Shown: positions 52,056 through 62,214 of the stretch, in pieces
How the letters are laid out: each line of letters opens with the position of its first letter
Numbering within the stretch: position 1 is the first letter of the stretch
Assembly (NCBI GenBank): GCA_030749435.1
Contig: JASMKH010000006.1
Coordinates: 21,579-85,578 of the forward strand
Length of the DNA stretch: 64,000 nucleotides
DNA from: Phycisphaerales bacterium
Lineage (GTDB): Bacteria; Planctomycetota; Phycisphaerae; Phycisphaerales; SM1A02
Direction of reading: 5' to 3'
Translations under genes and position numbers: made by a program
The notes under the pieces: model-generated
The model's database searches: none
What the model saw: the letters and a program-made list of their open reading frames with translations, nothing else
What the model was told of the DNA's origin: nothing

Positions 52056-53576
52056 ATGGCGACCAAGGCGAAGACGGCGATCACACCCACCCGCGACGAG
52101 AACTACCCCGAGTGGTATCAGCAGGTCGTCCGCAAGTCCGATCTCGCCGAGACTTCGGCGGTTCGGGGATGCATGGTCATCAAACCGTGGGGCTATGCCC
52201 TCTGGGAGAACTTTCAGCGGGTCCTCGATGGGATGTTCAAGGCCACAGGGCACCGCAATGCCTACTTCCCGCTGCTGATTCCGAAGCGGTTTCTCGAGAA
52301 GGAAGCCGAGCACGTCGAGGGTTTCGCCAAGGAATGTGCCGTCGTGACGCACCACCGCCTCGAGACGGGACCGGACGGTGGACTTGTGCCGGCAGGCGAG
52401 TTGGAGGAACCGCTCATCATTCGACCGACGAGCGAAACCATCATTGGAGATGCTTTCAGTCGCTGGATCGAGTCGTACCGAGACCTCCCCCTGCTGATCA
52501 ACCAATGGGCCAACGTCATGCGGTGGGAAATGCGGACCCGGCTGTTCCTGCGAACCAGCGAGTTTCTGTGGCAGGAAGGCCATACCGCACACGCGACTCC
52601 GGAAGAAGCCATTGAAGAGACCGATCGCATGCTCGACGTGTACGCAGACTTCGCCAACAACTGGATGGCCATGCCGGTGATCACCGGCTCGAAGACTGCC
52701 GGCGAGCGATTCCCGGGCGCCGTCCAAACGCTGTGCATTGAGGCCATGATGCAGGACCGCAAGGCACTGCAGGCTGGCACGTCGCACTTCCTCGGGCAGA
52801 ACTTCTCCAAGGCGCAGGACATCACGTATCAGAGCGAAGAAGGCAAGCTGGAGCACTGCTGGACGACGTCCTGGGGTGTCTCGACCCGTCTCGTGGGCGC
52901 GATGGTGATGACCCACGGCGACGACGACGGACTGATGCTCCCGCCGCGGCTCGCACCCGCCCACGTCGTCATCCTTCCGATGACCGGTCGCGCCGAGAAC
53001 CCGGAGGCCGTCCTGAACTACTGCCGCAAGATTGCGGATGACTTGCGGGTGATCCCCTATCACGGCAGGCACATCGAAGTCGAAATCGACGAGCGGGACA
53101 TTCGCGGCGGTGAGAAGAACTGGCAGTGGATCCGCCGGGGCGTCCCCATTCGCCTCGACATCGGACAGCGGGACATGGAGGGAGACAGCGTCTTCATGGC
53201 TCGCCGCGACAAGGGGCACAGGGACAAGGCCAATGTGGATCGAGCCGCGTTCGTCTCGGGCATTCACGGCATCCTCGAGGAAATCCAGCAGGGCATGTAC
53301 GATCGGGCGCTCACCTTCCAGCGAGACCACTCCTGCGAAATCAACTCCGAAGAAGCCTTCCGCGAGTACTTCGCAGCCCCGCCCGGAGACCCGACGCCGC
53401 CGCATGCCGGATTCGCCTGGGCGCACTTCTGCGGAGACGAAGGTGTCGAGGAGCGGATCAACAATGAGTTGGGCGTCACGGTTCGGTGCGTGCCGCTCGA
53501 AGAAGGCGAGCCGGGCACGTGCATTTTCACCGGCAAGCCGAGTGAGAAGCGGGTCGTCTGGGCCAAGGCCTATTGA
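52056..53576 (+). CDS. proS: Prolyl-tRNA synthetase, archaeal/eukaryotic-like type
   Basis: NYPEWYQQVVRKSDLAETSAVRGCMVIKPWGYALWENFQ; LIIRPTSETII; FLWQEGHTAHAT. Confidence 0.95.
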   Translation: MATKAKTAITPTRDENYPEWYQQVVRKSDLAETSAVRGCMVIKPWGYALWENFQRVLDGMFKATGHRNAYFPLLIPKRFLEKEAEHVEGFAKECAVVTHHRLETGPDGGLVPAGELEEPLIIRPTSETIIGDAFSRWIESYRDLPLLINQWANVMRWEMRTRLFLRTSEFLWQEGHTAHATPEEAIEETDRMLDVYADFANNWMAMPVITGSKTAGERFPGAVQTLCIEAMMQDRKALQAGTSHFLGQNFSKAQDITYQSEEGKLEHCWTTSWGVSTRLVGAMVMTHGDDDGLMLPPRLAPAHVVILPMTGRAENPEAVLNYCRKIADDLRVIPYHGRHIEVEIDERDIRGGEKNWQWIRRGVPIRLDIGQRDMEGDSVFMARRDKGHRDKANVDRAAFVSGIHGILEEIQQGMYDRALTFQRDHSCEINSEEAFREYFAAPPGDPTPPHAGFAWAHFCGDEGVEERINNELGVTVRCVPLEEGEPGTCIFTGKPSEKRVVWAKAY

Positions 53577-58665: not shown

Positions 58666-60585
58666 TCAGGCACTGTTGTCATCGCGGACTTCGTACTCCG
58701 CGTCGATGACATCGTCGCCGTCCTTACACGTACCGTCACCGCAGCAGGCGTCATCTGCAGGCTCCGCCTCGGCCTGCGAAGCGGCCTCGTAGGCGGCCTT
58801 GCCGAGTTCCTGAGCCACGGTGTTGACCTGATTGAGCGCCGCTTCGATAGCGGCCTTGTCATCACCCTTGATCTTCTCTTCGAGGTTGCTCAACGCAGAC
58901 TCGATGTTTCCGCGAACTTCGGCATCCACCTTGTCGCCGTGCTCTTCGAGCTGCTTGCGGGTGGCGTAGACGATCTGCTCGGCCTGGTTTTTCAGTTCAA
59001 TCAGTTCGCGTTTGGCCTTGTCTTCGCTCGCATGCGACTCGGCATCGGACTTCATCTTCTCGATCTCGTCCTTCGACATACCGCTCGAGCCGGTGATCTC
59101 GATGTTCTGGCTCTTGCCGGTCGCCTTGTCGGTCGCGGAGACCTTGAGAATGCCGTTGGCGTCGATCGCAAACTCGACTTCGATCTGCGGCATGCCGCGA
59201 GGCGCTGCAGGGATGTCCATGAGGTCGAACTTCCCGAGTGTGCGGTTGTCGGCGGCCATTTCACGTTCACCTTGGAGGACCTGAATGGTCACGCTGGTCT
59301 GATTGTCGCTGGCCGTGGAGAACGTCTCTTTCCGCGAAGTCGGAATCGTTGTGTTCTTCTCGATCAGCCGTGTCATCAGCCCGCCGAGCGTCTCGACACC
59401 GAGGCTCAGTGGAGTGACGTCCAGCAGCAGCACGTCCTTGACGTCGCCCTGCAGCACACCACCCTGAATCGCGGCACCAATGGCAACCACCTCATCAGGG
59501 TTGATCGACTTGTCGACTTCGGCGGTGCCAAAGAGCGACTTGGCAATGTCCTGGACCTTGGGGATCCGGGTGCTGCCACCGACCATCACGACGTCGCTGA
59601 CGTCGCCTGCCGAGAGTCCGGCGTCCTTGAGGGCCGTCTTGCAGGGACCTTCGAGGCGATTGAAGAGGCTGGCGGCAAGTTCCTCGAACTTGGCGCGAGT
59701 CACGGTCACCTGAAGGTGTTTGGGACCGTTCTGATCGGCCGTTATGAAAGGCAGGTTGACGTTGGTCTCAAGCTGCTGGGAGAGCTCGCACTTGGCCTTC
59801 TCGGCGGCCTCCTTGAGCCGCTGAAGCGCCATCGCATCGTTGCGGATGTCGATGCCATCAGTCTTGCGGAACTCGTCGGCGAGGAAGTCGATGATGACCT
59901 GGTCGAAGTCGTCGCCGCCGAGGTGGCCATCGCCACTGGTGGAGAGGACCTCAAACACGCCGTCACCGATATCAAGAATGGAGACATCAAACGTACCGCC
60001 ACCGAGGTCAAAGACCACGATCTTGGTGTTCGTCTTCTTCTCAAGGCCGTATGCCAGGGCCGCAGCGGTCGGCTCGTTGATGATCCGCTCGACCTTGAGG
60101 CCAGCGATCTCACCGGCGTCCTTTGTCGCCTGACGCTGGGCATCGTTGAAGTAGGCCGGCACGGTGATGACGGCACTTTCGACGGATTCCCCGAGGTACT
60201 CCTCAGCAATCCGCTTGAGTTCCCGCAGGAGCATTGCGGACACTTCCGGCGGGGTGTATTCCTTGCCGTCTGCGCCAACCTTGACCTTGACGAGTTCATC
60301 GGCGGCACCGGTGACTTCGTAGGGGACGATCTTCTCTTCGCTCTGAACCTCGCTGTGGCGGCGGCCCATGAAGCGCTTGATCGAAAAAACTGTGTTCTTG
60401 GGATTGGTCACCTGCTGGTGCCGGGCCGGCTCGCCCACAAGGCGGTCGCCCTTGTCTGTGAACCCGATGACGCTGGGCGTGGTGCGGTTGCCCGACGAGT
60501 TGATCAGGACCTTCGGCTGATCGCCTTCCATGACGGCGACGCATGAGTTCGTGGTGCCGAGGTCGATTCCAATAATCTTTGACAT
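58666..60585 (-). CDS. dnaK: Chaperone protein DnaK
   Basis: [50 protein letters not shown] near C-terminus. Confidence 0.97.
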
Positions 60586-60810: not shown

Positions 60811-61260
60811 CGTTGTTGGACACCCATCAACCATTGTCGGACACCCATCAACAGCCGTAGCCGTAACCATTGTCGGACACCCATCAACCAATGTCGGACA
60901 CCCATCAACTCAAGCCGTTGTTGGACACCCATCAACCCGGCTTCATGGGGCCGTCACGGCGTGTTGGTGGGTGTCCAGGCTCTCCTGCAGTCTCTCCTCT
61001 GGGGCCGTCGCAGCCCGTGTCGGCAAGTGTCGGACACCCATCAACCAGGCTTCACGGGGCCGTCACGGCGTGTTGGTGGGTGTCCAGGCTCTCCTCTCCT
61101 GCAGTCTCTCCTCTGGGGCCGTCGCAGCCCATGTCGGCAAGTGTCGGACACCCATCAACCCGGCTTCATGAGGCCGTCACGGCGTGTTGGTGGGTGTCCA
61201 GTCTCTCCGACGGCGTGTTGGTGGGTGTCCAGTCTCTCCTGGTGTCCAGTCTCTCCTGGG
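60811..61260. repeat. Complex direct and inverted repeat array (GGACACCCATCAAC / GTTGGTGGGTGTCC)
   Basis: Direct copies start at 60818, 60839, 60875, 60896, 60923, 61032, 61146; inverted copies start at 60963, 61072, 61186, 61217; larger 109/114-bp tandem unit from 60923. Confidence 0.95.
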
Positions 61261-61527: not shown

Positions 61528-62214
61528 ATGCGAGTCACAATGTTGGTTGCAACGACCGCGGTGTTGGGCCTGAGTGCTGGCGCACTCGGCGACGTGCTCT
61601 ACAGCAACAGCTTCGAGAACACCGACGCCCTCGGCGGCAAGTACTACGACACCGGCGATGCCAATGTCGCGCATGATCTTGTGAACAACGCTGGAGAAGC
61701 GTGGGTCGATGTCGACGGCATGGACGCGGGCTACATCCCCTTTGACCCCCCGGGTGTCGGCCTGACCGACGGCGACTACGTGGGCGTCACGAACTACACC
61801 GGCAGCGTCGGCGCCTTCTACGACGGCGACCAGGGATATCAGATGTCGGATACCGATGGCGTCATGTCGCTCTCGAGTGCCGACTTTGCCGGCGCCACGT
61901 CCGTCTCGCTCGCGCTGTTCATCGCGGATACCGGGTACGAAGACACCGACTACGTCCAGGTCTTCTTCGGCGGCGTCGAACTGCTGAGTATCGGCGGCAC
62001 CGACGACGGCGGCGCGGCACTTGAGGCAGCCGCTGGCTCATGGTTCGAGGTCACCGGCGCGGTCGCTGGCGGCGCATTGGAGATCTACTTCGCGAGCAAC
62101 TCCGGCAGCGAAGCGCTCTTCATCGATGCCATTGTCATCGAAGGCATCCCGGCACCGGGTGCCCTGGCCCTTCTTGCTGTGGCCGGATTCGCAGGCCGCC
62201 GACGCCGACGCTGA
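61528..62214 (+). CDS. Secreted PEP-CTERM-type sorting-signal protein
   Basis: Signal peptide MRVTMLVATTAVLGLSAGALG and C-terminal IPAPGALALLAVAGFAGRRRRR. Confidence 0.8.
   Translation: MRVTMLVATTAVLGLSAGALGDVLYSNSFENTDALGGKYYDTGDANVAHDLVNNAGEAWVDVDGMDAGYIPFDPPGVGLTDGDYVGVTNYTGSVGAFYDGDQGYQMSDTDGVMSLSSADFAGATSVSLALFIADTGYEDTDYVQVFFGGVELLSIGGTDDGGAALEAAAGSWFEVTGAVAGGALEIYFASNSGSEALFIDAIVIEGIPAPGALALLAVAGFAGRRRRR

Follow-up and report, generated by a model that had tools for sequence, protein, structure and literature searches.

The window analysed here is a 64,000-nt stretch of the Phycisphaerales bacterium assembly GCA_030749435.1 (contig JASMKH010000006.1, 21,579-85,578), and positions given without a contig or locus label refer to it. 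It contains a divergent gene pair separated by a repeat array. On the left lies dnaK (58666..60585, minus strand), whose earlier identification was upheld, and on the right an ORF of 228 aa with a PEP-CTERM-like tail (61528..62214, plus strand); the PEP-CTERM label given to the latter before has the C-terminal sequence as its sole basis and found no NCBIfam match. Both genes are outside the repeat. The array as a whole runs from about 60811 to 61259, has no strand of its own and holds 11 copies of the 9-nt core GGACACCCA in the order +++++-+-+--. Its features, all given on the plus strand, start with four direct cores (60813..60909) that carry the tags TTGTT or TTGTC and are stepped by 21 bp (twice) and 36 bp (once). 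There follow a 109-bp unit (60923..61031) composed of a plus core, 26 nt, a minus core and a 55-nt linker, its tandem copy of 114 bp with an extra CTCCT (61032..61145), and a third inverted pair of 54 bp that represents a partial unit (61146..61199). A tandem duplication of 31 bp bearing two minus cores (61179..61239) and one of 17 bp of the core tail GGTGTCCAGTCTCTCCT (61224..61259) complete the array, in which nested duplications of 17, 21, 31, 109 and 114 bp can be distinguished.

The preliminary description had delimited the two units and the partial third copy from 61146 correctly, and the tandem unit was recovered by TRF (period 114, 2.6 copies, 92% matches). The arms GGACACCCATCAAC and GTTGGTGGGTGTCC of each unit indeed form a 14-bp stem that includes a single G-T pair. 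The extent of 60923-61230 proposed for the array was too narrow, as more direct copies and duplications belong to it. Conversely, the array does not fill the intergenic region, contrary to what had been stated, since it covers only some 450 bp of the 942 bp that separate the start of dnaK (60585) from that of the following gene (61528). Within the window the 14-mer arm matches 12 times at two mismatches or fewer, against a mean of 0.57 and a maximum of 3 in shuffled sequence.

The motif is not confined to this site. Pattern searches of the 1.8-Mb MAG, with the reversed pattern as control, yielded 71 occurrences of the 14-nt arm GGACACCCAYCAAC (control 0) and 131 of the core GGACACCCA (control 6). 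The fetched copies form 18 clusters of at least two cores at about 14 loci, with an irregular spacing of 21-105 bp (median 36), and 82 of the 91 adjacent pairs are direct, i.e. head-to-tail. The conserved block comprises 20 bp, RATGYT-GGACACCCACC-AAC, of which the 6-nt tip is degenerate and partly locus-specific. Solo arrays of the motif are scattered over the genome, each with spacers particular to its locus: the mean shared 7-mer fraction of spacers is 0.25 within arrays (113 pairs) and 0.006 between arrays (1372 pairs), which implies that one core was seeded widely and was subsequently copied along with the DNA of each locus. Searches of plasmid and phage records for the repeat gave no match.

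These counts bear on the possibility that the dnaK array results purely from replication slippage or misassembly at that locus. The preliminary description had taken confinement of the unit to this place as the sign of such an artefact. The 109-bp unit does occur only at dnaK, and the nested duplications of 17, 31, 109 and 114 bp resemble slippage, but the core is found at about 14 loci with differing spacers and also in other genomes. The recurrence of the core throughout the genome therefore excludes a mere local artefact; slippage may account for the growth of the array, not for the dispersal of the core, and as a full explanation it is contradicted and very unlikely.

In the same MAG there are also 16 occurrences (control 0) of the palindrome CCCCCCACAAGTGGGGGG, which makes up a further family of repeats. 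It is often paired at a distance of about 50 bp and is also found at contig ends (e.g. contigs C29 (locus L099), C5 60964-61032, C9 3-71, C26 4-72 and C3 64072-64139). A separate locus on contig C37 (L097:593-709) has a single plus and a single minus core about 100 bp apart that enclose the palindrome GGGGGTCACACC...GGTGTGACCCCC, and this miniature element is longer than the one at dnaK.

A link of the motif to a transposase was provided by the genes that it surrounds. On contig C3 two clusters in inverted orientation flank a gene of 312 aa at 52109-53044 that encodes a RAYT-like HUH/Y1 transposase. Four copies of the transposase are present in the genome, none of them in the window; relative to the first, the remaining three show 64-73% identity. 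The three copies with assembled flanks all have plus cores upstream and minus cores downstream, whereas the fourth fills a contig of 906 bp. The motif RATGYTGGACACCCACCAAC therefore bounds transposase genes, in sense orientation upstream and inverted downstream. Moreover, the five clusters of mixed orientation, among which is the one at dnaK, all read plus then minus. As this is the polarity of the gene-bearing elements, they are best seen as elements cut to their two ends, and the 54-bp part of the 109-bp unit is a miniature pair of a left end and a right end. Of the readings offered in the preliminary description, that of a mobile non-autonomous repeat is the one that found support, given that copies of the core occur throughout the genome and also sit at both ends of its transposase genes.

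The transposase matches Pfam Y1_Tnp above the cut-off and the NCBIfam RAYT model below it. A search with PF01797 alone recovered none of the four copies because they are divergent; a protein search did find them. The best fold match of the AlphaFold model (pLDDT 81) was TnpA-REP bound to its REP hairpin (4er8, E 3e-4, prob 1.0), followed by the IS200/IS608 transposases. The HuH motif (N64-H65-L-H67), FWE and Y182 are invariant in 24 homologues. The protein thus combines the HuH motif, the catalytic tyrosine and the IS200-like fold that characterize RAYT/TnpAY1 proteins.

In a comparison of sequence features and taxa with Table 1 of PMC6006769 the protein fits TnpAY1 subclass 2.3, for which a median length of 325 aa, the motifs NHYH/WE/YVDLNP and a median HuH-Y distance of 110 were reported (Quentin et al. 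2018, PMC6006769). The agreement covers length (about 312 aa), motifs (NH-h-H, WE and YxDLN), the long HuH-Y distance (about 115), the presence of several divergent copies per genome and the taxa, with relatives in Alteromonadales and Chromatiales; the copies of this genome differ in reading NHLH and YIDLNA in place of NHYH and YVDLNP. For this subclass the authors found no flanking REP-like sequences or structures (PMC6006769), in contrast to the linear motif and dispersed repeats described here. A transposase family believed to be without a repeat partner thus likely gains one.

The generality of the association was studied in a scan of GTDB genomes, which gave 47 relatives of the transposase and 33 usable loci from 19 lineages of Planctomycetota and Gammaproteobacteria. 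The octamer G[AC]CANNCA was present between -150 and -50 upstream of 30 of the 33 relatives and in 17 of the 19 lineages, compared to 2 on the opposite strand and a mean of 2.0 (maximum 8) in 500 shuffles. It was found inverted 130-330 bp downstream in 23 of 30 cases, versus 2. Since the octamer was picked after inspection of these 33 loci, a second set of 25 further Planctomycetota loci was tested with the window set beforehand. Here the prospective result was weak: 7 of the 25 had the octamer, with 4 on the opposite strand and a mean of 1.6 (maximum 7) in 1000 shuffles. After widening of the window the count rose to 11 of 25. The two sets overlap by at least one locus, as the protein of L180 (second set) is identical to that of L114 (first set). 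At several loci the longest inverted words between the flanks, identified without any preset pattern, included the motif or a sequence close to it (ATGGGGACAGGC, AAGCAAGGACAGGC, ATTGCCATCCACTGTAT, TAAAGGGGCCACACCACC). We read G[AC]CANNCA as a real but degenerate family motif that is strongest in the closer relatives. Relatives of the motif flank homologous transposases in two phyla. A different genus of the family has three motif sites about 6.7 kb apart on a single contig (G095 C29, 14215, 20993 and 27637; loci L041, L055 and L058).

Genomes in which the transposase has several copies were informative about the position of the motif in the element. In Colwellia polaris (seven copies) and a Kangiellaceae MAG (five copies) the homology is lost 6-9 nt 5' of GGACACCC. 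Because copies within the same genome diverge just 5' of the core, the motif constitutes the left-hand tip of an element with several copies. In the genome of the window, too, the information profile begins some 6 nt before the core on its 5' side. In Colwellia the left ends are also reiterated head-to-tail, and at L140:3975-4140 of C. polaris the left end and the start of a second copy come within about 50 bp after a transposase copy, head to tail. In Thioalkalivibrio a triplet of the motif with a spacing of 34 bp is located away from the L144 transposase. The genome concerned (G123) has 20 forward and 3 reverse matches to the motif, against 6 and 6 for the control, a strand bias that would fit a lagging-strand preference if the orientation of the scaffolds follows replication. 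A genome of the same family as the one studied here (G027) has five transposase matches and its own variant of the motif. This 12-mer, GACAGGCACTCG, occurs 22 times in that genome (control 1) and is absent from the genome of the window. It adjoins two of the G027 transposases with the same polarity as in the genome of the window and forms a solo array of seven copies with a period of 36 bp (C15:180046-180274).

Known Y1 transposases recognise hairpins. Permutation of the 5' and 3' flanks around the core revealed no excess pairing, neither in this genome (p=0.26) nor family-wide (p=0.89), and the hairpin hypothesis was therefore dropped. The stems GTTGG-ACACCCA-CCAAC and GGGA-CACACA-TCCC, each seen at single loci, were discarded likewise, as there was no excess after flank permutation. 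The long stem noted in the preliminary description arises from two facing cores. Its proposal of a structured repeat family did not find support, considering the predominance of direct pairs, the restriction of the self-complementary unit to places where plus and minus cores face each other and the lack of a co-varying stem around the core in the permutation test. The alternative of a small-RNA locus is unsupported as well, since an Rfam search of the array found nothing. One could still envisage a family of structured RNAs or of regulatory hairpins that acts on neighbouring transcripts, and the inverted pairs of the window do fold strongly (about -32 kcal/mol computed for the 54-bp pair). However, such a pair is absent from most clusters, its polarity is explained by the role as element ends, and together with the Rfam and permutation results this makes an RNA function very unlikely. 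At the same time, a motif without a hairpin is at odds with the known Y1 transposases that read hairpins, which we counted against an explanation in terms of transposon ends.

The distribution within the genus provides an indication of the age of the repeat. Each of the eight other genomes of the genus has 0-6 exact copies of the 14-mer, and at the syntenic dnaK site of the sibling species G002 and G004 the motif is entirely absent (the gap at dnaK in G002 measures 754 bp). The burst must therefore be recent and at the level of the species. A precise empty site at dnaK could not be recovered from the siblings because their intergenic DNA has diverged. Near-matches to the motif are numerous in the siblings G002 and G003, which also have small arrays. 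In G002 a decayed N-terminal fragment of the transposase adjoins a core. G003 has no transposase match despite its many near-matches, which counts against an origin from the transposase, although this genome is 87% complete. The motif could be a site bound by a host protein, iteron-like or chromosome-organising, that was acquired by the transposase, the arrays being kept for a host function; the strict conservation of the core amid diverging spacers and the length of the arrays (up to 11 direct copies) would be in line with this. Such an origin is nevertheless unlikely in view of the species-specific burst, the siblings without an array at the syntenic site, the irregular spacing and the fact that homologous transposases of distant phyla are bounded by the same class of motif.

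Among the systems already described, the nearest concept is that of the TIRtrons, in which terminal-inverted-repeat-associated tyrosine transposases (TIRYT) are found; the TIRs of some families are dispersed, dimeric or in clusters, and several share GGGGWSAS (PMC3733652, 2013). As in TIRtrons, a RAYT-like Y1 transposase gene lies here between inverted repeats other than the GTAG REPs. GGGGWSAS may overlap the motif in part: in motif orientation it was found exactly in 2 and with one mismatch in 13 of 35 elements, against 0 and 3 in the opposite orientation. The differences are the shared end motif G[AC]CANNCA and the solo ends in long head-to-tail arrays with locus-specific spacers. The REP/REPIN/BIME systems with their RAYT likewise have a short dispersed repeat that bounds the RAYT gene, inverted pairs, tandem clusters and a cognate variant per lineage. 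Unlike in these, the single motif has no hairpin here, the arrays are mostly direct, and in Colwellia the gene-bearing unit is itself multi-copy and ends at the motif. A canonical REP (GTAG) was rejected because RATGYTGGACACCCACCAAC has no 5' GT[AG]G foot and the permutation test for flanking stems was negative. The inverted pair of transposase-bounding ends at dnaK (plus core, 26 nt, minus core) is REPIN/MITE-like; like a MITE it has two ends, no gene and the polarity of the full element, but it is just 54 bp long, tandemly amplified and has very short ends. A CRISPR was set aside, as the spacing is 21-105 bp and the spacers are alike within an array. Resemblances to attC, DUS and Chi were also discarded, for the arms do not match an attC core and copies of the motif cluster.

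We consider it probable, with good though not full confidence, that the array is made up of repeated ends from a single-strand DNA transposon system with a RAYT-like HUH/Y1 transposase (subclass 2.3-like). The arrays are best read as non-autonomous, REPIN/MITE-like derivatives of an element of the TIRtron type. In such a system the transposase would recognise and cleave RATGYTGGACACCCACCAAC on single-stranded DNA, and it may have moved the motif to the dnaK locus in trans, as suggested by the dispersal of the motif and its absence at the sibling sites. Nick-driven re-replication or slippage at the motif could then duplicate the core and adjacent host DNA in tandem, which would yield repeats of 21, 31, 109 and 114 bp. 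An extension to subclass 2.3 as a whole, as mobile elements whose linear ends (G[AC]CANNCA and a lineage-specific tip of 6-9 nt) have no hairpin and which generate tandem arrays of end and host DNA, is more tentative, and we would put it at slightly under an even chance. If true, transposition and the birth of repeats in this subclass would differ from the hairpin-guided IS200/REP systems.

A Y1 transposase with dispersed ends is an already known kind of system. As far as the literature consulted shows, a linear motif for subclass 2.3 and direct, spacer-specific arrays have not been described earlier. A large orphan branch of single-strand transposases thereby gains a candidate recognition sequence that is directly testable, and the association would account for a class of irregular short tandem arrays in genomes of planctomycetes and marine gammaproteobacteria. 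Should the ends truly lack hairpins, the rule of hairpin recognition by Y1 transposases would need an exception. Finally, these genomes may allow the origin of a repeat family to be traced, from the end of a transposase element to the solo array.
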